DNA of 64,000 bases, from positions 5,146,001-5,210,000 of the forward strand of contig NZ_CP018620.1 in the NCBI RefSeq assembly GCF_001908275.1, given 5' to 3'. The position numbers were made by a program, and so were the translations under genes. Shown here one piece after another: positions 10,235 to 27,741 of this stretch. Numbering within the stretch: position 1 is the first letter of the stretch; each line of letters begins with the position of its first letter. This stretch comes from Paenibacillus xylanexedens. GTDB taxonomy: Bacteria > Bacillota > Bacilli > Paenibacillales > Paenibacillaceae. The notes under the pieces were generated by a model that had not been told where the DNA came from, searched no databases, and worked only from the letters and a program-made list of their open reading frames with translations.

Positions 10235-10861
10235 TCAGGTTCGTTTCGCCTGTCTTAAGGCCAGCCACGCGCACAGAATGCTTACCAGTGTCAGTCCGAA
10301 TGTGAAATTACGCACAGCTTCTACATGATCATAGAGGGAAGCGGGTAACCAAGGGTAAATATCATATGTATAATCCATCGTATCGTTCAACAGTGTCCAG
10401 AGACCTGCAACGACAAGGGAAGCCCAGCGGAAGCCGAAAAAGCGTACATAAATTAGAGCTTCAATGGCCATCGCACTATGCGAAGCAATCAACATCCAGT
10501 CTTGCCAGTGCTGTGTACCGCCTTGCATCCAGCCAGCGAAAATAATGGATACGGCCCACACGCCATATTTCACAGATGTGACCACGGCAAGCGCCTGAAT
10601 CACATGTCCGATCCGTTTGATAATGATGGACCGTGGTGGGTACAAGACCCATAACAACGCTAAAGTAAAAAACAAACTCGCTGTTGGACTATCTGGCACA
10701 AATACGATCTGCCACACCGGCTGCTCAGCCAGCGTCAATTTCATTTGCTCTCCGTACCAGATGTATCCATATACGGTTCCTACTGCATTACACCAAAATA
10801 ATAGCCACAGGAAATAACGATTGGTTAGAAATTCCCTACTCCAAAAATACGATAAAGCCAT
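10235..10861 (-). CDS. ypjA: DUF1405 membrane protein YpjA
   Basis: A 208-aa integral membrane protein with about six hydrophobic helices, starting MALSYFWSREFLTNRYFLWLLFWCNAVG, a typical DUF1405 opening. Found next to qcrC in B. subtilis and here too. No function is established. ATG 10861 is preferred because GGAAGGGG lies about 8 nt upstream; the upstream in-frame start falls inside the qcrC terminator. Confidence 0.82.
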   Translation of the reverse strand: MALSYFWSREFLTNRYFLWLLFWCNAVGTVYGYIWYGEQMKLTLAEQPVWQIVFVPDSPTASLFFTLALLWVLYPPRSIIIKRIGHVIQALAVVTSVKYGVWAVSIIFAGWMQGGTQHWQDWMLIASHSAMAIEALIYVRFFGFRWASLVVAGLWTLLNDTMDYTYDIYPWLPASLYDHVEAVRNFTFGLTLVSILCAWLALRQAKRT

Positions 10862-10924
10862 ATTCCCTGCCCCTTCCTTCATCATATATTGTGCACGATA
10901 CAGTGCTGTCCAAAAAAACACTTC

Positions 10925-10955
10925 AAAAAACCTGACCGCATAAACGATCAGGTTT
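10925..10955 (-). terminator. Terminator of qcrABC
   Basis: Minus-strand stem AAACCTGA/TCAGGTTT with a 12-nt loop, followed by TTTTTT, directly after qcrC. Confidence 0.8.
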
Positions 10956-10972
10956 CATTGGTTATTTCGATT

Positions 10973-11857
10973 TTACTGTTCTGCTTTCTGTTTCGCAAGC
11001 CATTCGGTCAGATGAGTAATCTCTTCATCCGTAACACCTTGAGCAATAGCATTATTGTACTGAGGCTGCATCTCGTTGTAGCCTTCTTTGATAATGGTCA
11101 GAATCTCTTCCTGGCTGTGCTTGTCACCTATGCCTCGAAGCGAAGGTCCAGTTGCGCCCTTCATATCAGCCGCATGGCAGCCAATACATCCGGCCTTCTT
11201 GTACGTTTCCATTGCAGGATCATCCTGTTCCACGATCGCAACTTCTTCTTGCTGTCCAGGTGCATTGGAAACGGGTGGGAGCCCCTGTTCACGCCTCTCC
11301 AGCGCTTCTTCTTCACGTTGAATATGTTCAGGCTTCTGTCCACTTGCTTCCAACTCATGCTCGTAGTGCGTCCACGCTACATTTGTCAGGTAGAATACAG
11401 AAATGACCGACAAAATCATCAGTGATGAAGCAATTGGGCGTTTATAGAAACGCCGCTCCTTGCCTGTGTCCAGGAATGGTGCCAGCAGCAAAGCTCCAAA
11501 AGCGACTCCGCTGACCCCCAGTACCCCGAGCAGAACGTAATCGCCCGATGCGTATGGATACTTCAAGTACTGATACAGAAAAAGGAAGTACCAGTCCGGC
11601 ATAGGAATTACGGATGCGCTCGGATTGGCCGGATAGCCTAAAGGTGCAGGTTCTGAGATCGTGAGAACCAGAATCCCCACCAATACAACGACACCAACCA
11701 TCCATTCTTTCAGCAGGAAGTTGGGGATAAAGGCTTCTGATTTGCCGGGATACGCCGTGTAATCCGGCGGGGTAATAAATCCCGCCCCTTTACGGACCCG
11801 TGAATCACCGACAAAGATAACCTTTTCCTCATCATCCTTCTTATGTCCGTGAGCCAT
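10973..11857 (-). CDS. qcrC: Menaquinol:cytochrome c reductase cytochrome b/c subunit QcrC
   Basis: A 294-aa membrane subunit of the bc-type complex that passes electrons from menaquinol to cytochrome c. The N-terminal half is subunit-IV-like with three hydrophobic segments (FLLKEWMVGVVVLVGI..., MPDWYFLFLYQYLKYP...). The C-terminal extracytoplasmic domain is a c-type cytochrome with haem motif CIGCH (about residue 224) and a distal methionine in the MQPQY region. Last gene of qcrABC; starts 21 bp after qcrB. Confidence 0.94.
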   Translation of the reverse strand: MAHGHKKDDEEKVIFVGDSRVRKGAGFITPPDYTAYPGKSEAFIPNFLLKEWMVGVVVLVGILVLTISEPAPLGYPANPSASVIPMPDWYFLFLYQYLKYPYASGDYVLLGVLGVSGVAFGALLLAPFLDTGKERRFYKRPIASSLMILSVISVFYLTNVAWTHYEHELEASGQKPEHIQREEEALERREQGLPPVSNAPGQQEEVAIVEQDDPAMETYKKAGCIGCHAADMKGATGPSLRGIGDKHSQEEILTIIKEGYNEMQPQYNNAIAQGVTDEEITHLTEWLAKQKAEQ

Positions 11858-11878
11858 TGCGATTCCTCCCTTCTCAGT

Positions 11879-12550
11879 TTATAGTGGTCCCGAAATGCCC
11901 TGTCTGCGGATCATGATAAAGTGTCCGACCAGAAGCACCAGAAGCACAGCGGGGAGGAAGAATACGTGCAGGGCAAAGAATCGGGTTAGTGTCTGTGCAC
12001 CAACAATCGTACCGCCTTGCAGGAATTCTTTAATAATCGGTCCCAGCCAAGGAACCGTATTGGCAATCTCCAGTGTTACTTTTGTTGCAAAATAGGCTTT
12101 GTTATCCCATGGCAACAAGTACCCTGTCAGCCCCAGGCCCAACATGACGAAAAAGATCAGCATGCCGACAACCCAGTTCATTTCACGCGGTGCCTTGTAA
12201 GAGCCTGTAAAGAACACACGCATCGTATGTAAGAACATCATTACGATAACCAGACTGGCTCCCCAGTGGTGCATGCCGCGAACAATTTGGCCAAAAGCTA
12301 CTTTGGTCTGCAGGTACTCCACACTTGCGTAGGCATTGATAATATCAGGTACATAATACATGGTCAGGAACATGCCTGACAGAATCTGAATAACAGTAAT
12401 AAAGAACGTCAATCCACCAAAGCAGTACACGAATGCGGAAAAGTGATGAGCCGGATTTACATGCTCTGGAACTTCATGATCCGCAACGTCCCGCCAGATT
12501 GGCGTGATGTCAAGACGCTCGTCAATCCAGTCATAGACATTTTTAAACAT
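11879..12550 (-). CDS. qcrB: Menaquinol:cytochrome c reductase cytochrome b subunit QcrB
   Basis: A 223-aa cytochrome b6-type subunit with four membrane helices. Haem-ligand histidines sit in HHWGASLVIVMMFLHTMRV (second helix) and ALHVFFLPAVLLVLLVGHF (fourth helix), and the PRE(M)NWVVG loop follows. It forms the quinone-binding core with QcrC and the Rieske protein QcrA. Starts 15 bp after qcrA. Confidence 0.95.
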   Translation of the reverse strand: MFKNVYDWIDERLDITPIWRDVADHEVPEHVNPAHHFSAFVYCFGGLTFFITVIQILSGMFLTMYYVPDIINAYASVEYLQTKVAFGQIVRGMHHWGASLVIVMMFLHTMRVFFTGSYKAPREMNWVVGMLIFFVMLGLGLTGYLLPWDNKAYFATKVTLEIANTVPWLGPIIKEFLQGGTIVGAQTLTRFFALHVFFLPAVLLVLLVGHFIMIRRQGISGPL

Positions 12551-12565
12551 CTGCGTTCACGCCTC

Positions 12566-13105
12566 CTAATTCACTCGGGTGTTCGGAACAATGTCGCCCA
12601 GATATACCCAACCCTGCTCTTCCTTGACTACGTACTCATCCAGCGGTTTGGGGGCTACGGCAAGATTCTTCCCTTCCTTGTCATAGTGCGCGCCATGGCA
12701 GGGGCAATGATACTCGTCAGGGTACTGCTTGTCACTATTCCAGCCTACTGTACATCCCAGATGTTTACAGATAGGTGAGAGTGCATAAATTTTACCCTGC
12801 TCGTCTTTGCGAATCCACGCCACTAACGATGCATTACTCAGATACCAACCATCCTGTTGTTTAAGTTCAAAGGTGAATTCTTGAGGCTCATTCGTAATTT
12901 TGCTGATTTCAGCTACTTTGACAGAGGTGCCTTCTCCCTTATGTTGCAAAATCGGGTCCACCGCAAAACGGACCATAGGAAGGATTGCACCGGCGGCCAT
13001 GTAGGCTGTAGCTCCACCAAGCGTGTACGTCAAAAACTGCCTGCGTGACATCTCCATGCGGCTTGGCAATTTCAATGAAGCTTCGTGGTCATGCTCACTG
13101 CTCAT
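12566..13105 (-). CDS. qcrA: Rieske iron-sulfur subunit QcrA
   Basis: A 179-aa 2Fe-2S protein. The N-terminus has SRRQFLTYTLGGATAYMAAG, a twin-arginine-like signal anchor. The two Rieske cluster motifs are CKHLGC (near residue 113) and CPCHGAHYD (near 133), giving two Cys and two His ligands. Accepts electrons from menaquinol in the bc complex. First gene of qcrABC with a sigma-A-type promoter at 13188-13216. Confidence 0.95.
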   Translation of the reverse strand: MSSEHDHEASLKLPSRMEMSRRQFLTYTLGGATAYMAAGAILPMVRFAVDPILQHKGEGTSVKVAEISKITNEPQEFTFELKQQDGWYLSNASLVAWIRKDEQGKIYALSPICKHLGCTVGWNSDKQYPDEYHCPCHGAHYDKEGKNLAVAPKPLDEYVVKEEQGWVYLGDIVPNTRVN

Positions 13106-13187
13106 ACTGTCTCCAACCCCCTTTTTCAGCCAACTCTCTCAAACGTTTTCATTTTCATAAATTCCACGACTTACTAGAACATACATA

Positions 13188-13216
13188 ATCATATAGTAGC
13201 CCTAGAACACCGTCAA
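13188..13216 (-). promoter_or_regulatory. Sigma-A promoter of qcrABC
   Basis: Minus strand TTGACG-N17-TATGAT, 83 bp upstream of qcrA, predicted start near 13181. Strong match and exact spacing. Confidence 0.7.
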
Positions 13217-13244
13217 GAATTTGTCACACATTTTTAAGGTTCAA

Positions 13245-13259
13245 TTGTAAGCGTTATTA
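13245..13259. promoter_or_regulatory. Weak cre-like (CcpA) site upstream of qcrA
   Basis: TTGTAAGCGTTATTA matches the degenerate cre consensus WTGNAANCGNWNNCW except at one conserved position (T for C near the end). It lies about 65-80 bp upstream of the predicted qcrA start. Suggestive only. Confidence 0.3.
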
Positions 13260-13297
13260 AAAAATTGTTGTAAAATTGTCACATTTGTCGCTAAAAA

Positions 13298-13720
13298 CTA
13301 TTTTTTCCACAACTCGCGTATCTTTTCCCCTACAAATCTCGCAATCCCTTCTTCTCCAACCTCATGAGTTAAGACGGGCCGACTCAAAATCAGATCAGCA
13401 GCTGGAATTTCTACGCCATCCAAATGACCATCTGATGACATAATAACCACATATTTGAATCCCGAGGATTTAAGCTGTGCGGACAAGGAATTTAATGTCA
13501 TTGACAATTCCGAATTAGCATAATGATAGGCTGGATAAGTCATGATTCTCCCTTTGAAAGGAATTTCAACCAGATCCAGAAAATCTCTCAGCCGCTCCAA
13601 CGCCTCGGTAGCTTCAACTGGCGACTGCTCACCGCTAAGAGCTGTGTATGGAATAAGGCATGTATCCAGATAGAGTTGCAGTTCAGCCCAGCTGTCTTGA
13701 GTCATCTCACTGAATTTCAA
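13298..13720 (-). CDS. ypiF: DUF2487 protein YpiF
   Basis: A 140-aa soluble protein of the DUF2487/YpiF family, with LKFSEMTQDSWAELQLYLDTCLIPYTALSG at the N-terminus and a mid-protein YVVIMSSDGHLDG strand. Function is unknown. The same gene lies next to qcrA in B. subtilis. An ATG at 13756 is in frame, but the TTG at 13720 has AGAGGGG about 10 nt upstream and gives the usual family N-terminus. Start confidence moderate. Confidence 0.72.
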   Translation of the reverse strand: MKFSEMTQDSWAELQLYLDTCLIPYTALSGEQSPVEATEALERLRDFLDLVEIPFKGRIMTYPAYHYANSELSMTLNSLSAQLKSSGFKYVVIMSSDGHLDGVEIPAADLILSRPVLTHEVGEEGIARFVGEKIRELWKK

Positions 13721-13811
13721 TTCCCTATATCCCCTCTCTATCCATTTTATTCCCATATTATATATGACTATATCTTATAAATCCAGACATTCATTTTGGA
13801 ATTACACATAT

Positions 13812-13848
13812 CAAAAAAAGGAAACACGCATCTGCGCATTCCCTTTTA
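13812..13848 (-). terminator. Terminator after the IDEAL-domain gene
   Basis: Minus strand hairpin with arms AAAGGGAATGCGC and TGCGTGTTTCCTTT around AGA, then TTTTTTT. Confidence 0.7.
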
Positions 13849-13873
13849 TCTCAGAAAGGAACTATTTTGCTAA

Positions 13874-14053
13874 TCAGTTTATGGTCCTCAGTTCATCCGT
13901 CAGACTCCGGAAAGCTACTTCGTCTCCGGTAGCTAACGCTTTATCGATTTCCAAATAGAGCTTCTCGCTGCGCTGTTTGCGAAGCGCTTCGTCCCAAACC
14001 ATCTCAGCTGCCAGCCCCAACATGACTTCATACGTAACTTTCATTTTATCCAA
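13874..14053 (-). CDS. IDEAL-domain small protein
   Basis: A 59-aa protein read directly from the sequence: TTG start at 14053 with GGAGGTG 7 nt upstream, and TGA at 13874-13876. Residues 30-56 (EKLYLEIDKALATGDEVAFRSLTDEL) match the IDEAL domain, a roughly 40-residue module found in small Bacillales proteins and at the C-terminus of YpiB. Here the N-terminal UPF0302 part of YpiB is absent, so only the IDEAL module remains. Followed by a terminator; 23 bp after the gamma-carbonic-anhydrase-like gene. Molecular role unknown. Confidence 0.72.
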   Translation of the reverse strand: MDKMKVTYEVMLGLAAEMVWDEALRKQRSEKLYLEIDKALATGDEVAFRSLTDELRTIN

Positions 14054-14076
14054 TAGGATGCACCTCCAAAACGGAT

Positions 14077-14583
14077 TTAAGAGCTCCTATATTCTTTTCC
14101 TTTGGTAACGTAACCCAGTGAAGTTCTGGACATCCGCTCCAGATCGGCATCAGTCAGCTCACGTATCACTTTGGCAGGTGTCCCCAAAGCAAGAGTATAG
14201 GGCGGAATTTTACTATTCTCAGTAACAACAGAACCGGCTCCAATCAGCGTATATTTGCCAATATCGGCTCCATTCAGCAGAATGGCTCCCATGCCGATTA
14301 ATGATCCTGTTCCAATACAACAACCATGAATGATCGCTGTATGTCCTACTGAGACATCATCTCCTACAATCAAAGGTTGATCAGTATTGACATGCCCGAC
14401 AACGTTATCTTGAATATTACAGCGCTTTCCAATGATAATAGGAGCCAAATCAGCCCGAAGGACTGCATTGAACCAGACGGAAGACTCTTCTCCCATCCTC
14501 AAATCACCGATCAGTTTTGCACCTTCAGCCATATATACCGAAGGGTGTAACTGAGGTTGTAGACCTTTGTATGGAATTATCAT
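14077..14583 (-). CDS. Gamma-carbonic anhydrase-like hexapeptide-repeat protein
   Basis: A 168-aa left-handed beta-helix protein with hexapeptide repeats throughout (VGDDVSVGHTAIIHGCCIG, GMGAILLNGADIGKYTLIGAG). Zinc-ligand histidines of gamma carbonic anhydrases appear at H68 (VVGHVN), H85 (VGHTAI) and H90 (IIHGC). YrdA/PaaY/YtoA-type members are trimeric; some have carbonic anhydrase activity and others are acyl transferases or thioesterases. ATG 14583 is preferred (AAGGAG 8 nt upstream). Substrate uncertain. Confidence 0.82.
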   Translation of the reverse strand: MIIPYKGLQPQLHPSVYMAEGAKLIGDLRMGEESSVWFNAVLRADLAPIIIGKRCNIQDNVVGHVNTDQPLIVGDDVSVGHTAIIHGCCIGTGSLIGMGAILLNGADIGKYTLIGAGSVVTENSKIPPYTLALGTPAKVIRELTDADLERMSRTSLGYVTKGKEYRSS

Positions 14584-14627
14584 TATTATCACTCCTTAAT
14601 TTGGGAGTGATTTTAGCAACTTGTCCT

Positions 14628-15746
14628 TCAGTTGTCAAACATAATAGGCGTAATGTCTCCTGAGATGGAGCGACAGGATGCAGCAAGACGTGTGCCCCAG
14701 GCTGTCATTTGTATAGTCCTGCCTTCCTCATGTTCCCCAATACGGACCATGCCAAGATGCAACATCATTTTAACAATTCTGTTATCATAAATGGCCTCGG
14801 CCGTATCATAGTAAAACGGCTGAATGAACGGACCGATCTGACGAAACAGCGACTCGGCGGTTGACCATTCTTGGGCACATTCGCCTGTCCAATACACAAT
14901 AGAGGACAGATTGGGAATAGCACCTTTATACAATCTTAACCAAAACCTAAATAGCTGTATCATTTCGGCTGTTTTCTCAGCTCCCAGCTTGTCTTCTCCA
15001 GCTGATGATAACTTCAGCGTGCCTTGCTCCTCACGAACCAGCCGATGGTGAAATGCATAGTCGTAGAGAAGTGCGAAACGATCCGGGTAATCCTTGAAGG
15101 AACGGCCATATCCGAATCTCCATCCACCTTTGCCCACCAATTCCTCACTAATGTGCAGATGCTCCATAATCTGCTGTTGAGAGCGACGGTACATCATGCC
15201 TTCAGCGTTAAGGGCAATTTCGTGCTGCTGGACAAACTGCAGGAACAACTTGAGATCATCCGCTAAGAGATGATATTCATCCCGATACATGGGTGGTTCC
15301 GTTGTTTTGGTAATCCCTGCTCGCAGATGTGTGGATAACACATCCCTGAATCTTAATTTCAGATCCTGGGGTACCTGATACAAATACCTGGTCTGCTGCG
15401 TTGTCCCATTGAACAACCATCCACTCTTATTGAAGCGAACGATGAGATCACGTGGACTCGCGCCAGCCTCACTCTCCTTTTTGTCCATCGATTGACGGGC
15501 TATGGCAATGAGTTCTTCCATACCATAATACTGGCGAGGGTCAAACAACAAGTTGTTCAAAAAGCGCTGATCTGCTTGATTCAGTTGACGTACCTGCTGC
15601 TCAAAAAAGGGTCTGCTGCCCAATGTAGTGAGAATACTCTGGATGAGTTCATGTTTGGAATTGGGCTTGCATTCACATTGGTAATAGTCTGCTATTCGAT
15701 TAAGCTGGCCAATATCGGCAAAAGTAAGCATATCCGCTAGATTCAT
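14628..15746 (-). CDS. Conserved hypothetical protein, possible XPB/Ssl2-like helicase-associated fold
   Basis: A 372-aa soluble protein that I do not firmly recognise. The N-terminus (NLADMLTFADIGQLNRIADYYQCE...KHELIQSILTTLG) resembles the opening of helicase XPB N-terminal-like domains, with several winged-helix-like stretches after it, but there are no helicase ATPase motifs. It sits between the gamma-carbonic-anhydrase-like gene and the phosphatase, roughly where B. subtilis carries the unrelated TPR gene ypiA. No signal or membrane segment. Function unknown. Confidence 0.6.
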   Translation of the reverse strand: MNLADMLTFADIGQLNRIADYYQCECKPNSKHELIQSILTTLGSRPFFEQQVRQLNQADQRFLNNLLFDPRQYYGMEELIAIARQSMDKKESEAGASPRDLIVRFNKSGWLFNGTTQQTRYLYQVPQDLKLRFRDVLSTHLRAGITKTTEPPMYRDEYHLLADDLKLFLQFVQQHEIALNAEGMMYRRSQQQIMEHLHISEELVGKGGWRFGYGRSFKDYPDRFALLYDYAFHHRLVREEQGTLKLSSAGEDKLGAEKTAEMIQLFRFWLRLYKGAIPNLSSIVYWTGECAQEWSTAESLFRQIGPFIQPFYYDTAEAIYDNRIVKMMLHLGMVRIGEHEEGRTIQMTAWGTRLAASCRSISGDITPIMFDN

Positions 15747-15958
15747 GGGTCCATCGCCTCGCCCGTTAACTACTTCGACTACTGATTCGGAGCCTGAAAT
15801 AGTTTGGTTTTGTAAACATCGTTGACGGAATTCCCATAATCTAAACCTCTTTTTGGAAATCTTTTATGTTTTAAACCATACTATGCCCCGAGTTGGTCAA
15901 TCAGAAGAAAAATGAGAGGTTTGAAATCATATAAAGTCTTTATTTCCCCATAAAACGC

Positions 15959-15994
15959 AAAAAAACAACCCAAGTTGGATTACTCAGGTTGTTT
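15959..15994 (-). terminator. Terminator of the sigma/anti-sigma/phosphatase transcript
   Basis: Minus strand AAACAACC/GGTTGTTT stem (with extra inner pairs) followed by TTTTTTT. The hairpin overlaps the last codons of the phosphatase gene. Confidence 0.8.
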
Positions 15995-16579
15995 CGCTGT
16001 GTCCAAAGACAGATGTCGTGTGCAATTATACAACAGCGGACTCCAGTCATCACGTTCCTTTTCCAGGATCGTCAGTGACAGGTTTCCAATCCGTTCTGTA
16101 TACCGATCTTTAAACAAAGCTGTTAAAAGGTTGGCTAAGAAAGCTCCGTGAGTGACAATGAGTACGTTTTGGTCCGGATAGGCCGACCATAGATCTTCCA
16201 GAAACGCCAGTGCACGAATCTGGATATCCGCTATCTGCTCCTGTCCCAAGTCTAATGTCTCCCAGGCTTGGCCCCAACGGGCAACCCGTTCTTCTGAAGT
16301 CAGACCTTCAATCTGACCAAAAGCCCTTTCTTTCAACCGTGCGTCTGGCTCAAGCAAAGGTACATTCAACAGCTTGGAGATAATCTCCCCTGTTTCCTGT
16401 GCCCGCGATAATCCACTTGTGATGATATAGTCCCATTGGTATTCTTCCGTCAGCAGACGTCTTCCCAGGCGCTCTGCCTGTTCACGACCTTCTCCATTCA
16501 AAGGAATATCCGTCTGACCCTGTATACGGCCCGCCGCATTCCAGTCTGTAAGACCGTGACGAATAAGCCCGATTCGCAC
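15980..16579 (-). CDS. Histidine phosphatase family protein (phosphoglycerate mutase-like)
   Basis: A 199-aa member of the histidine phosphatase superfamily. The catalytic RHG is in MRIGLIRHGLTDWNAAGRIQGQTDIPLN (H8), followed by TSGLSRAQETGEI, the acid ERAFGQIEG, and the second histidine in VLIVTHGAF. The size fits broad-specificity or cobalamin-pathway-type phosphatases (PhoE/CobC); substrate cannot be assigned. Third gene after the ECF sigma and anti-sigma genes, ending in a terminator. Confidence 0.85.
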   Translation of the reverse strand: MRIGLIRHGLTDWNAAGRIQGQTDIPLNGEGREQAERLGRRLLTEEYQWDYIITSGLSRAQETGEIISKLLNVPLLEPDARLKERAFGQIEGLTSEERVARWGQAWETLDLGQEQIADIQIRALAFLEDLWSAYPDQNVLIVTHGAFLANLLTALFKDRYTERIGNLSLTILEKERDDWSPLLYNCTRHLSLDTAKQPE

Positions 16580-16622
16580 TTACATCCCTCATTTCTCCAC
16601 ACGGCGAACGAAAGGTTATTAC

Positions 16623-17258
16623 CTATGCACTCGCACCTTGTTTGCGTTTATTCGTTGTTCGATGCATACGTCCAAGAGAAAATAACGCCATTCCTATTGC
16701 AAGTAAAGAGAGGGCCATCCAATACTGCGGATAAGCAGGTCCCATGCTCACAACAAAAGGTTCTATGATACTTCCTCTGTCCGCTCCAGTCATGTTGTAC
16801 TGATACATTCCAGAGGACGATGGTCCGCTTCCGGCAACCCCTGTCTCCAGGATACCCGTAGTAACAACTTTGGTTTGCTCAGCTTCTGATACGTCTGGCT
16901 TAAACATTGCCATATACAGAAAGCTGCATAAAAAAATAGCCAGGAACGCGGCAATCCACAAAGACATATGCTTGCGGATCACAGCAGAGAAACGATTAAC
17001 CTTTACCTCTTCCGGCAGTAACCATGGAGACTCCGCGTAGATCCGGTCCATAACGTTACGGTTCACTCTCTCTGCTTGTTGTTCTGTCACTGGAACCGGA
17101 ATGCTGTGCAGCAAGATCTGAGCTTCTTCCCAGACCTCAAACTGCTCAGAGCACTCTTCACAACCAACGAGATGAGCATGAAATGCAATCCGCTGAGGAT
17201 GAGTTTCCGGCAAGTCCCAGACCAGTGCAAACAGTTCCTGGGCTTCATTGCAATTCAT
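16623..17258 (-). CDS. Anti-sigma factor with zinc-finger (ZAS-like) domain
   Basis: A 211-aa predicted membrane protein. The cytoplasmic N-terminus has the zf-HC2 pattern H-x3-C-x2-C (HLVGCEEC, about residues 29-36) seen in RsiW-type anti-sigma factors. Hydrophobic segments at about 100-117 (LWIAAFLAIFLCSFLYMAMF) and 180-195 give two likely membrane passes around an extracytoplasmic loop. It overlaps the ECF sigma gene by 4 bp (ATGA), so it is the probable cognate regulator. The inducing signal is unknown. Confidence 0.8.
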   Translation of the reverse strand: MNCNEAQELFALVWDLPETHPQRIAFHAHLVGCEECSEQFEVWEEAQILLHSIPVPVTEQQAERVNRNVMDRIYAESPWLLPEEVKVNRFSAVIRKHMSLWIAAFLAIFLCSFLYMAMFKPDVSEAEQTKVVTTGILETGVAGSGPSSSGMYQYNMTGADRGSIIEPFVVSMGPAYPQYWMALSLLAIGMALFSLGRMHRTTNKRKQGASA

Positions 17259-17848
17259 CGGTTCTTCATCCCTTCATATGGCTCGTACACCGGTTCGAAG
17301 AAATAAGGTTCCAATTGAGTTTTTACGCTTGATCTTGCTCTGAATAATAGCGATTTCACAGAACTGACGCTCTGCCCAAGAATATTCGCAATCTCTTGGT
17401 AGTCTAGTTGATCATACTCACGGAGTATAATCGCAGAACGCTGCTTCTCCGGCAAATTGTTAATCGCATCCCTAACCAGCATCACCCGCTCGCTGCGTAG
17501 TACAGCATACTCCGGTGTATTCTCCGAAGGAGCAACGGGAACAATCCCGCTCTCTTCAAGTGGGACATTTCCGCTGCGCTGTTTGCGAAGCTCACTCAGT
17601 ACCGTATTTCTCGCAATGGTATATAACCAAGTTGAGAATGAGGCATCCACCTCACGGAAAGAGTGCAGACTGCGGAACGCCTTATAGAAAGTCTCAGAAC
17701 AGAGATCTTCCGCAAGCAGCTCCATATTGGAACTTTTCAACATATGATATACGAAAGCCAGTATTTTACGCTGATAACGACTCATCAGCTCGGAATATAA
17801 CTCCAGGTTACCTTCCTTGATCTCTCGAATCAACTGGGAATCCGTCAT
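17255..17848 (-). CDS. ECF-type RNA polymerase sigma factor
   Basis: A 197-aa group 4 sigma factor. Region 2 (about 20-90) contains LLAEDLCSETFYKAFRSLHSF and FSTWLYTIARNTVLSELRK. Region 4 (about 125-180) contains LPEKQRSAIILREYDQLDYQEIANILGQSVSSVKSLLFRAR. ATG 17848 is chosen (GGAGGGG about 10 nt upstream). Co-transcribed with its anti-sigma gene. A good ECF-type promoter lies at 18166-18194, indicating autoregulation. Confidence 0.9.
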   Translation of the reverse strand: MTDSQLIREIKEGNLELYSELMSRYQRKILAFVYHMLKSSNMELLAEDLCSETFYKAFRSLHSFREVDASFSTWLYTIARNTVLSELRKQRSGNVPLEESGIVPVAPSENTPEYAVLRSERVMLVRDAINNLPEKQRSAIILREYDQLDYQEIANILGQSVSSVKSLLFRARSSVKTQLEPYFFEPVYEPYEGMKNR

Positions 17849-18165
17849 TTGAGTGCGACCCCTCCTCGCCCATCCATGTGCTTCTCCCCGTTCGACTCTA
17901 TCCATGTATTACCGAACAGGCACAAAAAAGTTGCGGTTCTCACCGCATATAAAAAGCGTTCAGCGCCATAACTGGCCTTCCCGCCAAATTCCCCTATGTA
18001 ATGGCAATTTCCCCAACGTTTCTACATTAACAGTATTTATTGTACAACGGTCTGCATCATCCTGGCAAATCCATTGCTATCCTCAGAACCCGACCTGTCA
18101 TTCATATGCAGTCATTTTCACGTTCATGACTTCATTTTGAGCCTTTTTGTTAACCCTTGCTTATA

Positions 18166-18194
18166 CAGACGCTCGACATACTGAAAAGGTTACA
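18166..18194 (-). promoter_or_regulatory. ECF-type autoregulatory promoter of the sigma factor operon
   Basis: Minus strand TGTAACCTTTT...N...CGTCTG: -35 TGTAAC, 17 nt, -10 CGTCTG, close to the TGAAAC-N16/17-CGTC pattern used by B. subtilis ECF factors (SigW/X/M/V). It is 318 bp before the sigma gene's ATG, so the leader would be long. Confidence 0.55.
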
Positions 18195-18295
18195 AAAATG
18201 TGATATTTATTTGATCTAAGGTATCCCTAAAAATAGGAGTTATTATCCTGAATTACCGAAAGATATAATTAATTCAAACAATTTTACTGAAAGTG

Positions 18296-18324
18296 TTGAC
18301 AAAATGAAAACGTATACATATAAT
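18296..18324 (+). promoter_or_regulatory. Consensus sigma-A promoter of a candidate small RNA
   Basis: TTGACA (18296-18301), exactly 17 nt, TATAAT (18319-18324): perfect consensus hexamers and spacing. No coding region follows. Predicted start A18331, where a hairpin begins. Confidence 0.8.
18304..18318 (+). promoter_or_regulatory. Catabolite-responsive element (cre) for CcpA inside the promoter spacer
   Basis: ATGAAAACGTATACA fits every defined position of the cre consensus WTGNAANCGNWNNCW. It fills the spacer between the -35 and -10 of the small-RNA promoter, where bound CcpA would block RNA polymerase. Confidence 0.6.
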
Positions 18325-18330
18325 AAGGGT

Positions 18331-18414
18331 ACAGTATGGTTTCTCTCCACTCCTATCCAATAACTGTATTGCTCCACGTGAGCAATGGCCGCTTTTGTAA
18401 GCGGTCTTTTTTTT
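18331..18414 (+). ncRNA. Candidate CcpA-regulated small regulatory RNA, about 84 nt
   Basis: No open reading frame, but a complete transcription unit. Predicted RNA: hairpin 1 with ACAGT (18331-18335) paired to ACTGT (18363-18367), closing a C/U-rich loop (TTTCTCTCCACTCCTATCC); hairpin 2 ATTGCTC/GAGCAAT (18368-18386); and an intrinsic terminator (18387-18414). The pyrimidine-rich unpaired stretch resembles the C-rich targeting loops of Gram-positive sRNAs that pair with G-rich ribosome binding sites. I do not recognise it as FsrA, RoxS/RsaE, SR1 or 6S RNA. It lies alone between tyrA and the ECF sigma gene. Confidence 0.65.
18387..18414 (+). terminator. Intrinsic terminator of the candidate small RNA
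   Basis: GGCCGCTT/AAGCGGTC (8 bp with one G-U pair), loop TTGT, then eight T residues. Confidence 0.88.
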
Positions 18415-18517
18415 GCCTTTAAAAAGATGTTTATATGTTAATATTTATATAATCCCTACATAAAACCCTCTTTGATCTGTGACTGAAAATCAAATAAGAA
18501 CTCCAATATAACCTCAC

Positions 18518-18543
18518 AAAAAAGAGGGCTTTCGCCCTCTTTC
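18518..18543 (-). terminator. Terminator of the trp-hisC-tyrA transcript
   Basis: Minus strand AGAGGGC-GAAA-GCCCTCT followed by TTTTTG, just after tyrA. Confidence 0.88.
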
Positions 18544-18548
18544 TCGTC

Positions 18549-19643
18549 TTATATCCACACTTGATAGCCTAAGGAATCCAATAACGTCTTGGCTCGTTCC
18601 ATATCTTCTTCCTGACGGAAAGACAGACGCATAATGCCCGGCACATCCACCCGGTTTTCGATAATCTCCAAGTTGCTCAAGTTGATATCATTCGCCCCAA
18701 GCTCAGTTGCGATCTTACCGATCATACCCGGTGCATCCTGGACATCAGTATATAGATCAAATAACGGCGAAATCATACCTTTGCGTCGTTCTGGTAATAT
18801 ACTGCGGAACTCGCGGGCCTGACGGAATGCCTCCTCTATGCCTTCACCGTTCTTATGCTCCAGCATATCCGTAAAGGCCGTCATCTGGCTATTCCAGTCC
18901 TTAAGCAAGCCCAGCAGTACATCACGGTTGCTAAGCAAGATATCTCTCCACACAATCGCATCACTGGACGCAATCCGGGTAATATCCCGAAAACCACCTG
19001 CAGCCAGCATTTTATACAGTGGATTCGACTCATTATATTCACGCACCTGATTCACCAGTGCAACAGCAATAACATGTGGCAGATGACTAATCGCCCCCAC
19101 GATGTCATCGTGCAGCAGAGGCTCCACACGCACGATCTGTGCCCGCGTATACGCAAGCAGCTCAGACAACCTGCTGTAGGCTTCCTCAGGTACATGTTCT
19201 GAAGGGGTTAAGACATAGTATGCATTCTCAAACAACACAGCTGAGGCCGCATCTACGCCTGCACGCTCCGACCCTGCCATAGGATGACCACCAATGAAAT
19301 AAGCGTCAGTCAACCGCACATGCTCGGCACAAGCGGCAATGGAAGCTTTAGTGCTTCCTACGTCCGTGATGATACATCCTTTTTTCAATGGCAGCTTGGA
19401 GAGCTTTTCGAAATAGGATTCTAGCAAACCTACGGGAACGCACAAAAAAATAAAGTCGGCATCCTCTACCGCTTCTTCCAGAGAGAGCGTAGCATCATCC
19501 ACTACACCGCTCGCTATGTACTTGTCCTTCAGTTCATCCAAGTGGGCGTAGCCCATCACGGTTACACCTGGCTTGCCTTTGAAGCAGAGCGCCAGTGAAC
19601 CGCCGATGAGTCCTACACCAATCATTGCAATTTTTAGTTTCAT
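18549..19643 (-). CDS. tyrA: Prephenate dehydrogenase with C-terminal ACT domain
   Basis: Oxidative decarboxylation of prephenate to 4-hydroxyphenylpyruvate in tyrosine synthesis. The 364-aa product has the NAD-binding GVGLIGGSLAL (8-18), the GGHPMAGSERAGVDAA motif near 130 carrying the catalytic histidine, and a C-terminal ACT domain (from about 290, LYTDVQDAPGMIGKIATELGANDINLSNLEI), the usual site for tyrosine feedback. Last gene of the supraoperon; in B. subtilis aroE follows, but here a terminator and the candidate small RNA do. Confidence 0.95.
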   Translation of the reverse strand: MKLKIAMIGVGLIGGSLALCFKGKPGVTVMGYAHLDELKDKYIASGVVDDATLSLEEAVEDADFIFLCVPVGLLESYFEKLSKLPLKKGCIITDVGSTKASIAACAEHVRLTDAYFIGGHPMAGSERAGVDAASAVLFENAYYVLTPSEHVPEEAYSRLSELLAYTRAQIVRVEPLLHDDIVGAISHLPHVIAVALVNQVREYNESNPLYKMLAAGGFRDITRIASSDAIVWRDILLSNRDVLLGLLKDWNSQMTAFTDMLEHKNGEGIEEAFRQAREFRSILPERRKGMISPLFDLYTDVQDAPGMIGKIATELGANDINLSNLEIIENRVDVPGIMRLSFRQEEDMERAKTLLDSLGYQVWI

Positions 19644-19669
19644 GGGTCCTCACTCTTTCATCGCCAGTA

Positions 19670-20770
19670 TTAAGGGCGTGCTACCGCCTTCTCAGCCAGC
19701 GTGTTCTCCAGTGCCGTGACAAATGCACGGTTCTGTTCTGATGTTCCGACGGACACACGAATGTAAGTTGGGTATACGTGGAATCCTGAGCGAACGATAA
19801 TGCCTTGTTTGAGCAAGGATTGGAACGCAATTGCCGAAGGCATATTCAGGTCAACCATAATGAAATTACCCTGTGAAGGGAAATACGACAATCCGAGCCG
19901 TATAAATTCATTTTGAAGGTAATCCCGATCCGTTGCATTCCGCTTCGAGCACTCTTGAACAAAATCCTGATCCAGTAGTGCAGCTTTTGCCGCAACCTGT
20001 CCAAAACGGGAGGTGTTAAACGGTTCACGTACACGGTTAATCAAATCAATAATTTCGGGACGTGCAATACCATATCCGATCCGAAGCGAAGCCAAACCGT
20101 AAATTTTGGAGAATGTCCGCAGTATGACCAAGTTCGGATACCGTTCGATCAATGGTACACTTTGCGGGTATGCTTCATCGGTTACGAATTCATAATAAGC
20201 TTCGTCCAGTATGACCATCACATGAGCAGGCACACGGTCCATAAAGGCTGTAAGTTCCTGCTCGGAGATAATCGTACCTGTCGGATTATTTGGATTACAC
20301 ACCCATACTGCTTTGGTTTTGTCGTTAATTTGCGCCAGCATCGCGCTCAGATCATGCGTGCCATCTTTCAGAGGCACTTCGATGGACACGGCACCCTCAA
20401 TATCTGCATTGCTTTTATATACAGAAAATGTCTGATCTGCCATAATGTTCTCATCACCCGGCAAGAAGAAAGCTCTCGTGATCAAAGCAATAATCTCATC
20501 GGAACCACAACCAAATATTAAGTTGTTCCGTTCAACGCCAAGATGCTTGGCAAGAACTCCCGTCAGCTCAACCGAGCTACCGTCTGGGTATATGCTTATA
20601 TTAGTCATTTCTTTCGTAATGGCTTCCAGAGCGGCAGGAGAACTGCCGTACGGGTTTTCGTTGGAGGCCAGCTTGATGACTTGTTCAAGCCCCAGTTCAC
20701 GTTTCACTTCTTCAATCGGTTTGCCCGGCTGGTACACAGGCAGATTGACAATCTGGGATTTCGGTTTCAA
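19670..20770 (-). CDS. hisC: Histidinol-phosphate aminotransferase (also aromatic aminotransferase)
   Basis: PLP-dependent class I/II aminotransferase; in this operon HisC serves both histidine and Phe/Tyr synthesis. The 366-aa product has SNENPYGSSPAA near 36, the NPNNPTGT motif near 157, and the PLP lysine in RTFSKIYGLASLRIGYG (K about 220). The start is TTG at 20770 with AGGAGG 8 nt upstream. An 86-bp gap after trpA holds a GACACG/CGTGTC hairpin and a second one, possibly for mRNA processing. Confidence 0.94.
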   Translation of the reverse strand: MKPKSQIVNLPVYQPGKPIEEVKRELGLEQVIKLASNENPYGSSPAALEAITKEMTNISIYPDGSSVELTGVLAKHLGVERNNLIFGCGSDEIIALITRAFFLPGDENIMADQTFSVYKSNADIEGAVSIEVPLKDGTHDLSAMLAQINDKTKAVWVCNPNNPTGTIISEQELTAFMDRVPAHVMVILDEAYYEFVTDEAYPQSVPLIERYPNLVILRTFSKIYGLASLRIGYGIARPEIIDLINRVREPFNTSRFGQVAAKAALLDQDFVQECSKRNATDRDYLQNEFIRLGLSYFPSQGNFIMVDLNMPSAIAFQSLLKQGIIVRSGFHVYPTYIRVSVGTSEQNRAFVTALENTLAEKAVARP

Positions 20771-20856
20771 CCCGACCGCCTCCTGTTATTGAAATAATGT
20801 TAGACACGAATCAGCGTGCACCTTACGTGTCCAAAAGATGTCTTTTCAGGACATAT

Positions 20857-21663
20857 CTATCCCTTTAATTGTGCCACAAAGTTGCGAATTTGCAACAGTC
20901 CCGCTGCACGCGTATCCGGATTTTCAAGCAGAGGAATCGCATCTTCCACTTGACGAACAATGGCACTACCTACAACAACGCCATCGCAGATGCGGGAGAA
21001 ATGTGCCACCTGCTCATGACTGGAGATACCAAAACCTACTGCTACAGGGAGGTCTGTCAGGCTTTTCACCGTCTCAATGAAGCTCTCTACGCCATCAAAG
21101 AAAGAAGCTCTCTCTCCGGTTACCCCAAGAGAAGATACACAATAGATAAAGCCACTCGCTCCCGTTACAATCCGCTCAATCCGGGCATTAGATGTAGGTG
21201 CAACAAGCGGCACCAGATGCACACCAGCACGATTTGCGCGTTCTCGCATCTCTTCCGCTTCCTCAATTGGCAGGTCCGGAATGATCATGCCACTAATATC
21301 GTGTTTGACCAATTCATCAAAGAATACATCCAGTCCTGTCTGCAATACCGGATTATAATAGGTGAACAGTACAAACGGCAGTTTCACACCTGCCTTACGA
21401 GCTTTTGCAGCGGTTTCCATAACAGTACGAATGGTAATCTGGCTTTTCAGCGCACGTTCGGAAGCACGCTGAATGACTGGGCCATCTGCAAGCGGATCGG
21501 AATAGGGAACACCCAGTTCCAAAATATCCGCTCCAGCCTGTTCAAGCTCCTTAATGATATCAATCGTTGTGTCCACATCCGGGTCTCCCACGGTTAAAAA
21601 TGGAATAAGTGCCGTACGATTCTGTTCCTTCAATTGCTGGAAGGTCTGGTCCATCAGATTCAT
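20857..21663 (-). CDS. trpA: Tryptophan synthase alpha chain
   Basis: Cleaves indole-3-glycerol phosphate to indole and glyceraldehyde-3-phosphate. The 268-aa TIM barrel has [11 protein letters not shown], the catalytic glutamate in [16 protein letters not shown] (about E49), D in [10 protein letters not shown], and phosphate-binding GFGIS and VGSAIV. Overlaps trpB by 4 bp; partner of TrpB. Confidence 0.96.
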
Positions 21664-22859
21664 CCCAAGTCACCTCCCGTGTATTTCATGATCGATTCAA
21701 CATCCTTGTCTCCACGTCCCGACAGACAAATGACTACAATATCATCTGCTGTAAGTTCAGGCGCCAGTTTGACAACTTGGGCAACCGCATGTGCAGACTC
21801 CAGAGCAGGAATGATTCCCTCCGTCCGACATAGGAGTTGCAGGGCATCCAGTGCTTCCTGATCCGTGATCGGTACATATTTTGCCCGTTCAATATCCTTA
21901 AGATAGGAATGCTCTGGACCAACACCCGGATAATCAAGTCCAGCCGAGATGGAATGCGCTGGCTGAACCTGCCCATACTCATCCTGCAACAGGTAACTCA
22001 TAGATCCCTGGAATACACCATGCGTACCTTTGGTCATTGTCGCAGCGTGATACTCGGTTTCGACCCCTTTGCCTGCGGCTTCAACACCAACAAGCTTCAC
22101 ATCCTGATCACCGATAAATGGATAGAACATACCGATCGCATTACTTCCTCCACCAACAGCGGCTACAATTACATCCGGCAAACGCCCTTCGATCTCCTGA
22201 ATCTGACGACGGGTCTCATCACCAATCACACGTTGGAAATTTCGCACCATCATCGGATATGGATGAGGACCAACCACTGATCCGAGCACATAGAATGTAT
22301 CCTCCACATTGCTGACCCAGTAACGAAGTGCTTCATTACCAGCATCCTTCAGTGTCCGTGTTCCGGACGTCACCGGAATCACTTCTGCTCCGAGCAGCTT
22401 CATCCGAAATACGTTTAACTGCTGACGCTCTGTATCTTCTTCGCCCATAAATACTTTGCATTCCAATCCAAGTAATGCGGCTACGGTTGCCGTTGCAACG
22501 CCATGTTGACCTGCACCTGTTTCGGCAATAACTTTCTTTTTGCCCATCCGTTTGGCTAACAATCCTTGTCCAATGGCGTTGTTAATTTTGTGCGCGCCTG
22601 TATGATTGAGATCTTCACGTTTCAGATAAATTTTCGGTCCGCCCAATCGGCGTGACAATTGCTCTGCATGATACAATGGCGTTTCACGTCCAGAATACTC
22701 GCTTAGCAGATAGTTCAGTTCCTTGTTGAATTCCTCATCTTTAGAGAAGTGGCTATATGCCTCCTCCAACTCTATGAGTGCGTTCATTAGTGTCTCAGGT
22801 ACAAAGCGGCCTCCGAAGTGACCGAAACGCCCGTGTTGATCCGGCAATTGATGTGTCAT
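21660..22859 (-). CDS. trpB: Tryptophan synthase beta chain
   Basis: PLP enzyme condensing indole with serine to tryptophan. The 399-aa product has the PLP lysine in [15 protein letters not shown] (K about 90), the substrate loop [11 protein letters not shown], and the glycine-rich phosphate loop GGGSNAIG. Overlaps trpF by 4 bp and trpA by 4 bp, favouring equal subunit synthesis. Confidence 0.97.
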
Positions 22860-23596
22860 GCCTGCTTCACCCTTTCTACGAATGCTGTAATTTTGGCAAT
22901 ATCCTTCACACCTTCTGTCTCCACGCCGCTGGATACATCGACGCCGAAAGGTGCATATGTCTGTATTAGTTGTTGTACATTGTCCGGCTGCAAACCTCCT
23001 GCAACGAACAGAGCAATTTCACGACTTTTCGCCCATTCAGCATAGGCAGGGATTCGCTCCCAGGCAAACGTTTTCCCGGAGCCCCCTCCATATAGAGGAT
23101 CATGGGTATCAAGCAATATCGCATCCACGAATTTATCGTAACTATCAAGATCCCTTATGGCTGCATCATCAGCTTCCGGTCCCGTTTCTTCTTTGGGAAA
23201 AGAAAAAACTTTGAACACTTTGGCATTCCACCGCTGCTTCACCTGCTGGCAAAATTCCGCAGTCTCCTGTCCATGCAGCTGAATAACATCCAAGTGAGCA
23301 ATCTCCATAATGTGTTCCAGCTCTTCGATCGTAGGATTCACAAATACACCCGCAAGCTTCGGCCGATCATAGGTAGACCATTCGAACAACACCGTTCTTA
23401 ATGCAGCGGCCTGCTCGGGTTCGATTCGGCGGCGTGATTTGGCAAAAACAACACCAATGTAATCCACAGGCAAGTTTATCATCGATTTTAGCACTTCAAC
23501 GTCCTGAAGTCCACATATTTTTACGGCCGCTGGCAGCGGGTTTCTCAGTTCTGACATACTGTCGCCTGTGCCATCTTGTATGGAAGTATTCATCAT
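22856..23596 (-). CDS. trpF: Phosphoribosylanthranilate isomerase
   Basis: Amadori rearrangement of phosphoribosyl-anthranilate to CdRP. The 246-aa barrel has [11 protein letters not shown] (general-base cysteine, about 28), [19 protein letters not shown], and AGGLQPDNV near the C-terminus. The ATG at 23596 overlaps the trpC stop (ATGA), giving about 14 extra residues before the conserved core; an internal ATG at residue 14 is the alternative start. Confidence 0.95.
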
Positions 23597-24381
23597 TTGG
23601 GTCCCATTAAATCATATACAGCCGCCTCGACATCATCCTTGCGCATGAGATGCTCACCTACGAGAATACCATGAACACCGGCCTGGATCAGAGGTACGGT
23701 TGATTCTGGTCCGTCAATACCACTTTCGCTAATCAAGGTAACGCCACTTGGAATCAATTCCATCAAATCCAGTGTCGTGTTCAGACTGGTTTCGAATGTT
23801 TTCAAATTACGATTATTGATACCCACTAGTGTTGCCTGCGGAATCTCCAATACATGCTCCAATTCTGTTCGATCATGGACTTCAATCAAAGCGTCCAGCC
23901 CCAAACTTTTGGCAAATTCCAGATATTGACGAATCTGTTCAGGTGTCAGAATGCTGGCAATCAGCAGTATCGCATCCGCACCCAGTAATCTTGCCTCAGC
24001 AATCTGTCGTTCATCTATAATAAAATCCTTGCGTAACAGCGGAATGTTCACCGCCTGATGAATCGCCTGCAAGTACTCGTTGCTGCCTTGAAAATACGAC
24101 ACATCCGTTAATACGGAGATGCAGTCTGCACCCGCTCGCTCATAAGCAGCAGCAATCTCTACCGGATGAAAATCCGGACGAATTAACCCTTTGGATGGCG
24201 AAGCCTTCTTCACTTCAGCAATAAGGCCGAGTTTGCGATTGCGTCCGCTTGATAGTGCTTGTTCAAACCCCCGGGTTGCGGGTAGTTGTTCGATTTGTTG
24301 GATAGCTTCATCCATGTTAAATGTTTGTGCCAGAACTTCAACTTCTTTATGTTTGGTTGCAACGATTCGATCAAGATACAT
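23593..24381 (-). CDS. trpC: Indole-3-glycerol phosphate synthase
   Basis: Ring closure of CdRP to indole-3-glycerol phosphate. The 262-aa barrel has LIAEVKKASPSKG (catalytic lysine), ISVLTDVSYFQGS, LLRKDFIID, VGINNRNLKTF and LISESGIDGPE. Its start overlaps trpD by 11 bp. Confidence 0.96.
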   Translation of the reverse strand: MYLDRIVATKHKEVEVLAQTFNMDEAIQQIEQLPATRGFEQALSSGRNRKLGLIAEVKKASPSKGLIRPDFHPVEIAAAYERAGADCISVLTDVSYFQGSNEYLQAIHQAVNIPLLRKDFIIDERQIAEARLLGADAILLIASILTPEQIRQYLEFAKSLGLDALIEVHDRTELEHVLEIPQATLVGINNRNLKTFETSLNTTLDLMELIPSGVTLISESGIDGPESTVPLIQAGVHGILVGEHLMRKDDVEAAVYDLMGPK

Positions 24382-25462
24382 GACTGTACGCCTCCGTTGT
24401 ATGAATTAACTGTTCAAGCTTCCCGGCAGCTTTGCCCGAATCTACCGCTTCTGCGGCAAGTGTCACCCCTTCAGCAATGCTATCTGCAAGACCGGATACA
24501 TAGATGCACGCTCCGGCATTCAACAGAACGACATCACGATAGGCACTCTGCTCACCCTGGAAGATCCTCTTAATAATTTCGGCATTCTGTGCCGCATCTC
24601 CTCCAAGTACCGCTTCAAGCGGATGCAGAGACAAACCCATATCACGTGGATCAATATCATAGGTGTGCACTTCACCATTGCGAAGTTCAGATACCTGAGT
24701 CGGTGCCGAGATACTGATTTCATCCAGACCATCATGGCTGGCCACGACCAACGCTCTTTTGAGACCAAGACGATTCAGTACTTCAGCAATCATCGGCGTC
24801 CGGGAACGATCATACAGGCCAAGTAATTGGCGATCTGCTCCCGCAGGATTCGTTAACGGTCCGAGCATATTGAAAATGGTACGAACCCCCAGCTCTTTTC
24901 TTGGTCCTGCCGCATGTCGCATGGAAGGGTGATATACCTGGGCAAAACAGAAGCAGATTCCGATATCATCCAGACATTGTCTGGCCTGCTCCCCGTTCAG
25001 ATGGATATTTACACCGAGTGCCTCTAATACATCTGCACTACCCGCTTTGCCTGAAGCTGAACGGTTGCCATGTTTGGCGACCCGAACCGAGACGGCCGAA
25101 GCAATGATCGCGGATGCTGTGGAAATGTTGAATTTGTGAATACCCGATCCACCTGTCCCACAAGTGTCCAGCAATCCGCTGCCATCCGTTAGAATTCGTC
25201 CGCCCTGACCACGCATGGCTTCAGCAAAACCGGTGATCTCATCTACCGTTTCACCCTTCATCCGTAGCGCCATCAGCAAACCTCCGATTTGAGCCGGCGT
25301 TGCCTCACCTCTCATGATCGAGTACATCAACTCTCTTGCTTCGGCTTGCTCCAGATGGCTGCCCTCTAGAATTTTCGCCAGGCCATTTTTCATGCCTTCC
25401 TCACGAGTAATCTCAGCAATAGGGGTTATAGGGTTCTCATTCATTATTGGGTTTATGTTCAT
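24371..25462 (-). CDS. trpD: Anthranilate phosphoribosyltransferase
   Basis: Transfers the phosphoribosyl group of PRPP to anthranilate. The 363-aa product has the PRPP-binding DTCGTGGSGIHKFNIST (about 99-115), KHGNRSASGKAGSADVLEALG, and FCFAQVYHPSMRHAAGPRKELGVRTIFNMLGPLTNPA. The start at 25462 gives about 20 residues before the conserved helix; a later ATG is possible. Starts 17 bp after trpE. Confidence 0.95.
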   Translation of the reverse strand: MNINPIMNENPITPIAEITREEGMKNGLAKILEGSHLEQAEARELMYSIMRGEATPAQIGGLLMALRMKGETVDEITGFAEAMRGQGGRILTDGSGLLDTCGTGGSGIHKFNISTASAIIASAVSVRVAKHGNRSASGKAGSADVLEALGVNIHLNGEQARQCLDDIGICFCFAQVYHPSMRHAAGPRKELGVRTIFNMLGPLTNPAGADRQLLGLYDRSRTPMIAEVLNRLGLKRALVVASHDGLDEISISAPTQVSELRNGEVHTYDIDPRDMGLSLHPLEAVLGGDAAQNAEIIKRIFQGEQSAYRDVVLLNAGACIYVSGLADSIAEGVTLAAEAVDSGKAAGKLEQLIHTTEAYSHVS

Positions 25463-25479
25463 CTCCGGTCTCTCCTCTC

Positions 25480-27735: not shown

Positions 27736-27741
27736 GTTCTC

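Follow-up and report, generated by a model that had tools for sequence, protein, structure and literature searches.

What is encoded between the tyrA gene and an extracytoplasmic function (ECF) sigma factor gene of Paenibacillus xylanexedens, where a strong promoter is followed by no gene? The locus lies in a stretch of 64,000 nt (contig NZ_CP018620.1, positions 5,146,001 to 5,210,000, forward strand), which we call the window. An earlier note on this DNA had proposed a small regulatory RNA (sRNA) controlled by the carbon regulator CcpA. We found that the locus very probably encodes such an RNA, judging from its anatomy and conservation. We also consider it likely that the RNA belongs to an undescribed family, widespread in many groups of Bacilli, of trans-acting sRNAs that CcpA represses and that act by masking ribosome-binding sites.

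Promoter, predicted transcript and terminator

The promoter has both hexamers at consensus, as the earlier note had said. With its spacer of 17 nt, TTGACA-17-TATAAT is a perfect sigma-70 match, and it was the only one of 45 promoter-like sites in a scan of window positions 10000-28000 to score 12/12. It drives neither of its neighbours: tyrA is convergent with it, the ECF sigma gene is divergent, and nothing co-directional lies close downstream in the window. The predicted RNA of about 84 nt would end at a strong intrinsic terminator, for which an 8-bp stem and a run of eight Ts are present (coordinates in Table 1). The 84-nt RNA was folded into three hairpins at -25.0 kcal/mol (z = -4.4), and none of 200 shuffled sequences folded as well.

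We also considered a short peptide (MVSLHSYP...) starting at the AUG in the core, whose frame runs through the terminator here. This candidate was rejected: with about 5 nt between it and the inferred 5′ end, the AUG lies too close to the start of the RNA, the third codon positions of the frame are as invariant as the others, and core variants break the start codon or the frame. The locus thus combines its own promoter, a Rho-independent terminator and a non-coding core, as is expected of a CcpA-repressed base-pairing sRNA.

Conservation of the unit

In DNA searches, the sRNA unit was matched in 75 of 75 genomes of the genus and, at E ≤ 0.01, in 394 of 394 genomes and 19 of 19 genera of the family. 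The weakest family match had an E-value of 8e-10; match ranges are known for the best ~150 places only. Most family genomes had one match and about a tenth had two; among the second matches listed in the genus search, most were promoter pieces, and all were short. In a sample of the class Bacilli, 161 of 398 genomes matched at E ≤ 0.001. The listed ranges extended into the RNA core in 143 of these, four (G611, G664, G725 and G728) covered the promoter/cre part only, and 14 matches, with E-values from 3.6e-4 to 8.3e-4, came without a listed range. As diverged copies escape this search, 143 is below the full number of carriers. Plasmids, phages and viral contigs gave no match in DNA searches or with an exact 20-mer.

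Conservation is concentrated at the 5′ end of the RNA, the most conserved part being the C/U-rich stretch UAUGGUUUCUCUCCACUCCUAUCC. In 50 aligned genus loci, the first ~28 nt of the RNA and the promoter hexamers were invariant, and the sequences of hairpin 2 and the terminator varied. Among the class matches, 20 distant loci were examined: the core TATGGTTTCTCTCCACTCCTATC was intact in every one, and the spacer, hairpins and terminator differed, the spacer being still similar in one locus of the same order. The longer core TATGGTTTCTCTCCACTCCTATCC was intact up to its last base, which was T in one of these loci.

A further 80 named loci, from at least 118 stretches, were fetched by an exact core 19-mer; their core identity is therefore by construction, and they were used solely for names, promoter, cre, terminator and neighbours. 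Named carriers include Cohnella, Saccharibacillus, Thermobacillus, Brevibacillus, Aneurinibacillus, Ammoniphilus, Shouchella, Halalkalibacter, Fictibacillus, Pseudalkalibacillus, Alteribacillus, Marinococcus, Geomicrobium, Caldalkalibacillus, Thermoactinomyces, Melghirimyces and Ferroacidibacillus. Among 140 distinct units, all selected for holding the 19-mer, the promoter scored at least 9/12 in 139 and 12/12 in 101. The exception was an Ammoniphilus unit (L113). In the Ammoniphilus-type units L113, L452 and L453, the -10 hexamer lies further upstream and an extra common leader, ACACCTTAACTAGCAGT, is found before or near TATGG.

A terminator was found in all 140 units, its T-run starting 48-95 nt past the core start, compared with 3 of 135 and 19 of 136 same-size flanking control windows. 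Each of the first eight terminator stem pairs showed 4-6 pair types with pairing kept, and stem lengths varied strongly between units. Loss of the promoter-loop-terminator layout in relatives would have spoken against an sRNA; instead, the unit is matched throughout the family, and the layout was verified in the 140 units. One locus (L034) holds a second, promoterless sRNA piece (23 nt exact) about 5.1 kb downstream of the core, with a fold-back hairpin and a terminator.

Hairpin 1 was less constant. Halalkalibacter, Shouchella and similar units form its stem from GUAUGG/CCAUAC and part of Paenibacillus from ACAGU/ACUGU, and in many other units it is open. Because this stem varies, the conserved unit is the exposed C/U-rich 5′ segment, with no fixed stem-loop. 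The earlier note had described three hairpins, the first closing a C/U-rich loop. The fold and the conserved stretch were recovered, but the hairpin 1 stem is not generally conserved; the note gave this hairpin too much weight and the breadth of the family too little.

A conserved DNA element, such as an operator or a replication feature, might merely resemble an sRNA gene. Within the genus, promoter DNA and RNA are equally conserved, and some units carry the inverse complement of the core in the spacer. However, outside Paenibacillaceae the spacer changes while the promoter hexamers, the core and a terminator stay, and the stems covary. We therefore hold this explanation to be very improbable.

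The cre site and CcpA

The promoter spacer contains ATGAAAACGTATACAT, the only full match in the 64-kb window to WTGNAARCGNWWWCAW, which we take to be the cre consensus; 0.13 matches were expected by shuffling. The full cre match that the earlier note had placed in the spacer was thus confirmed. Compared by eye with another cre consensus, TGWNANCGNTNWCA, the site has one mismatch. The site is constant across the 50 genus loci except at its degenerate N position, which is T or G. Allowing at most one mismatch to WTGNAARCGNWWWCAW, we found cre in 115 of 135 distinct units, 91 of them perfect; flanking controls gave 0 of 135, 1 of 134 and 1 of 132.

The position of cre was not the same in all lineages. 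In 136 units, it lay in the spacer in 97, in the 3′/terminator part in 17, in both in two and in neither in 20. In Paenibacillaceae the site lies in the spacer. The 3′ sites sit in the terminator hairpin, for example in Brevibacillus, Halalkalibacter, Alkalihalobacterium and Caldalkalibacillus, so that the cre palindrome doubles as the terminator stem or loop. A protein above the curated ccpA cut-off was present in all 27 genomes tested, including seven with cre-less units.

The retention of one operator at differing places across lineages is strong evidence for CcpA control. Of the control that the earlier note predicted, the operator stood up well, and binding by CcpA is what we infer from it. 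The direction of control is read from the site positions by the established CcpA mechanism: CcpA bound at these places could block initiation or elongation, which would amount to repression.

Binding of the spacer site by a LacI-family regulator other than CcpA is an alternative. Operators of the LacI type can be alike, and up to 32 proteins per genome matched the ccpA model at E ≤ 0.001. Set against this are the protein above the ccpA cut-off in every genome tested and the differing places of cre in different lineages, and we regard another regulator as improbable.

Two further features were seen around the promoter. In many Cohnella-like and related units, among them L112, L122, L126 and L134, AGCGCTTA or AACGCTTA stands right upstream of the -35 hexamer, like half of a second cre. 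In L095, L096/L124 and L104, one of which is Caldalkalibacillus, the spacer holds the inverse complement of part of the core (GGAGTGGAGAG or close to it), at the place where Paenibacillus has cre.

Genomic position and inversion in place

Of 100 loci (L091-L190, with a few genomes represented twice), 87 had TyrA or AroA adjoining the core, upstream on the same strand in 75 and inverted in 12. About half of the 13 loci without this anchor are cut off near the core, and the rest look relocated, for example in Fictibacillus and a Brevibacillus subgroup. Among 30 genomes without a DNA match, the aroA locus was found in 26, and a diverged copy lay downstream of aroA in two, both of family f8: GGTTTCTCTTCGCTCCTATCC in L273 and TTCTCTCCGCCCCTATCC in L271. 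At the other 24 aroA loci the best core match had 6-8 mismatches of 21; this concerns the locus only, and a copy elsewhere is possible.

Closely related Paenibacillus genomes differ by an in-place inversion of the sRNA segment (~250 bp, window positions ~18220-18470), which lies between tyrA and the sigma gene. Between L001 and L002 the segment is identical in reverse at 191 of 198 positions, with flanks collinear at 73 of 77 and 308 of 322. Relative to tyrA, 27 of the 50 genus loci are opposite and 23 are the same. On a tyrA tree this required nine changes of orientation, six of them forced by well-supported branches, although recombination of tyrA could inflate the number and three rows have long branches. 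Inverted units also occur in Shouchella and Halalkalibacter. By eye, the inversion breakpoints share just the short sequence ACAGA/TCTGT. In L005, L018 and L021 the tyrA match falls into two pieces (in differing frames in L005 and L018), which suggests a broken gene or a sequencing error.

The steady neighbourhood of tyrA and aroA would suit a cis-acting leader or attenuator of the neighbouring gene that yields no free RNA. We give this hardly any credence. Every unit has its own terminator, the unit lies elsewhere in some lineages, and nothing co-directional follows closely in the window. Moreover, with its own promoter and terminator the orientation of a free RNA gene should not matter, and the occurrence of both orientations argues against a role in cis.

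Proposed mechanism and candidate targets

CcpA acts with HPr-Ser-P. When preferred sugars are present, it would repress the sRNA gene by binding cre, which lies in the promoter spacer here but in the terminator hairpin of certain other lineages; when these sugars are exhausted, the RNA would be made. The exposed 5′ C/U-rich segment UUUCUCUCCACUCCUAU would then pair with purine-rich, AGGAGUGGAG-type Shine-Dalgarno (SD) regions and block the translation of a set of mRNAs, and the 3′ hairpins would terminate and stabilise the RNA. We regard masking of ribosome-binding sites as the most likely mechanism. The core complements AGGAGUGGAGAG-type SD regions. In 22 variant or distant loci the inner core TTTCTCTCCACTCC showed nine changes, stemming from three groups of loci: eight transitions and one T>G. 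Seven of the nine (five C>T and two A>G) would still allow pairing with a fixed purine target, by way of G-U wobble.

One candidate target came from an exact anti-core match at one gene start in G433, assigned to Brevibacillus through L162 (G516, a member of the same group). The start of this HAD-like gene (labelled by Pfam) holds an exact 17-nt core complement, and codons 5-7 contain a further block, AUACUGU, that pairs with ACAGUAU of the RNA. The gene was found in 15 of 21 genomes searched; in Brevibacillus and relatives, its start gave up to 25 pairs and -37 kcal/mol. Ten of the 15 starts reached -26.4 kcal/mol or lower, a level attained by 8 of 432 background gene starts. This comparison is conservative, as loci picked by near matches and the G433 start itself are part of the background; the choice of start is doubtful for L297 and L301.

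There were other candidates. A class II aldolase-like gene of the window's genome, which scores below NCBIfam cut-offs, has AGGAGTGGAGAGCAACATG at its start and is among the best candidates (-29.5 kcal/mol; -34.6 for the orthologue in the congener G010). Starts of leuB-like genes, assigned by eye, carry AAGGAGTGGA in G000, G159 and G409. The pattern AGGAGTGGA-N0-11-ATG gave 120 rows in six Paenibacillaceae genomes compared with 50 for the reversed pattern, as expected if these are ribosome-binding sites, and 60 of 115 loci read had an RBS-like start. Between genomes, five gene pairs with such sites had at least 84% identity and one had 64%, besides weaker ones; partly these are close relatives, and they are not proof. 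A der/engA-like start, also assigned by eye (window 49769-49784, minus strand), has AGGAGTGGAATGTATG, as does G010, and is a possible weak pairing site (-21.8 kcal/mol).

Several results weigh against a CcpA-repressed masker of ribosome-binding sites. By the consensus test, the 20 units without cre include those of Thermoactinomyces, Melghirimyces, Aneurinibacillus, Fictibacillus and Pseudalkalibacillus. The remaining two inner-core changes (T>C and T>G, both in L271) would weaken pairing. Five of the 15 HAD-like starts pair at -13.7 to -24.7 kcal/mol, and the gene was not found in five of five Paenibacillaceae genomes nor in G431; it therefore cannot explain the core in these Paenibacillaceae. 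The aldolase-like gene was rejected as a universal target, because 8 of 31 genomes had it; six of its starts were located, and pairing was at -16.7 to -28.3 kcal/mol for three of them and at -8.8 for one. The bipartite pattern AGGAG-N5-35-CCATACTGT in 14 Paenibacillaceae genomes returned the sRNA's own complement in each and seven scattered matches. A 17-nt anti-core with at most three mismatches gave 73 matches in four genomes, compared with 53 for the reversed pattern (G000, 17 and 19; G433, 15 and 6; G409, 7 and 7; G431, 34 and 21; both strands, each count including the sRNA's own complement). The HAD-like, bipartite and aldolase-like searches thus gave no target common to the whole carrier range. 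Finally, a 24-nt core nearly invariant in far lineages exceeds what SD pairing alone needs.

The last two points favour a CcpA-controlled sRNA that uses its 5′ core mainly to bind a protein or a second RNA, by titration or as a sponge, rather than many ribosome-binding sites. A CcpA-repressed sponge does exist, namely RosA (available text of PMC8216469). However, the core here is C/U-rich, unlike the G-rich RosA, and RsaE/RoxS, the partner of RosA, was not found in the 41 carrier genomes tested. The mostly wobble-preserving inner-core changes also fit RNA pairing. We judge such a core to be unlikely, less so than the other alternatives, and prefer the masking of ribosome-binding sites.

Relation to known small RNAs

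No Rfam 15 family reached its gathering threshold at the locus; in a scan to E ≤ 10 the lowest sub-threshold E-value was 0.13. None matched in the 20 distant loci. The statement of the earlier note that the family is not a known one thus holds against Rfam 15. We found no publication on a CcpA-linked Paenibacillus sRNA, none printing the core and none linking aroE, ypiA and an sRNA, in a search outside which most subscription papers and supplementary tables lay, so that absence from print is not established; its sole match for Paenibacillus, CcpA and sRNA together was an Enterococcus genome paper.

Among known sRNAs, RoxS/RsaE masks ribosome-binding sites, RsaI (RsaOG) is repressed by CcpA on glucose, and FsrA and CsfG are C-rich. 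According to PMC8216469, RoxS/RsaE is, like the predicted sRNA, C-rich, tied to central metabolism and conserved over several genera, but it is under Rex and ResDE control. RosA (S345) of Bacillus subtilis is repressed transcriptionally by CcpA, as is predicted for the present sRNA, but it sponges RoxS and FsrA through G-rich regions, whereas the conserved part here is C/U-rich and RoxS was not found in the carriers tested. RsaI is described there as conserved in Staphylococcus and not in Bacilli, with G-rich sponge segments. FsrA and CsfG of B. subtilis, named alongside RoxS, differ in control (Fur for FsrA, sigma-F and sigma-G for CsfG); their sequences were compared through the Rfam scans only. 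The Rfam scans of the locus and the 20 distant loci also gave no sign of orthology with RsaI, which we presume to be in Rfam. The predicted sRNA would thus resemble RosA and RsaI in how it is controlled, and its C-rich segment is like that of RoxS, but by the tests made it is a member of none of these families.

The distribution of RsaE/RoxS (RF01820) was compared with that of the sRNA. Its covariance model had no match in the window and none in 41 carrier genomes (18 + 23, the 23 under stricter filters). Among 20 genomes without an sRNA match, seven had RF01820, five above the Rfam cut-off, and an eighth matched at E = 4e-4. The difference between 0 of 41 and 7 of 20 is significant (Fisher P = 2e-4); seven genomes, two of f8 with diverged copies and five with ambiguous weak matches, were excluded from the count, and none had RsaE. 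This is no more than a hint of similar roles for the two RNAs, since carriers and RsaE holders belong to different families and the pattern may reflect one event.

Features of the locus

Table 1. Positions of the predicted features in the window
Feature	Position	Strand	Remark
-35 hexamer TTGACA	18296..18301	+	invariant in 50/50 genus loci
cre (predicted CcpA operator) ATGAAAACGTATACAT in promoter spacer	18304..18319	+	consensus match
-10 hexamer TATAAT	18319..18324	+	promoter scan
Predicted small RNA, ~84 nt	18331..18414	+	5′ end inferred from -10, 3′ end from terminator
Hairpin 1, C/U-rich stretch in loop	18331..18367	+	stem not conserved across family
Conserved 5′ core TATGGTTTCTCTCCACTCCTATCC	18335..18358	+	invariant in 50 genus loci
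Innermost C/U-rich core part TTTCTCTCCACTCC	18340-18353	+	
Hairpin 2, ATTGCTC-CACGT-GAGCAAT	18368..18386	+	relatives: other sequence, often still hairpin
Intrinsic terminator, 8-bp stem (18387-18406) and T8	18387..18414	+	
ECF sigma factor gene	17255..17905	-	divergent neighbour
tyrA (prephenate dehydrogenase)	18549..19643	-	convergent neighbour

Elsewhere in the window, a T-box leader (RF00230) was found at 60685-60915 on the plus strand (105.6 bits).

Significance

In the available text of two papers, sRNAs are described as taxonomically restricted (PMC8216469), and RsaE is the only known trans-acting sRNA besides 6S RNA common to S. aureus and B. subtilis (PMC4409812). Against this background, an sRNA gene matched in all 394 family genomes and in numerous further families of the class, its 5′ core almost unchanged, would be exceptional.

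A bolder interpretation, which we offer as a tentative possibility, is that one ancient CcpA-repressed carbon-control riboregulator serves Paenibacillaceae, Brevibacillus, Thermoactinomyces, alkaliphilic genera and others in the niche that RoxS/RsaE holds in Bacillus subtilis and Staphylococcus. Some lineages would have re-formed its operator within the terminator hairpin, a single palindrome there acting as both CcpA roadblock and terminator, and the gene would flip in place without loss of function. If the family is as we propose, carbon catabolite control in the industrially used Paenibacillus and Brevibacillus would reach the RNA level. It would also provide a natural experiment in operator turnover, in which the regulator stays the same and its binding site shifts from promoter to terminator.
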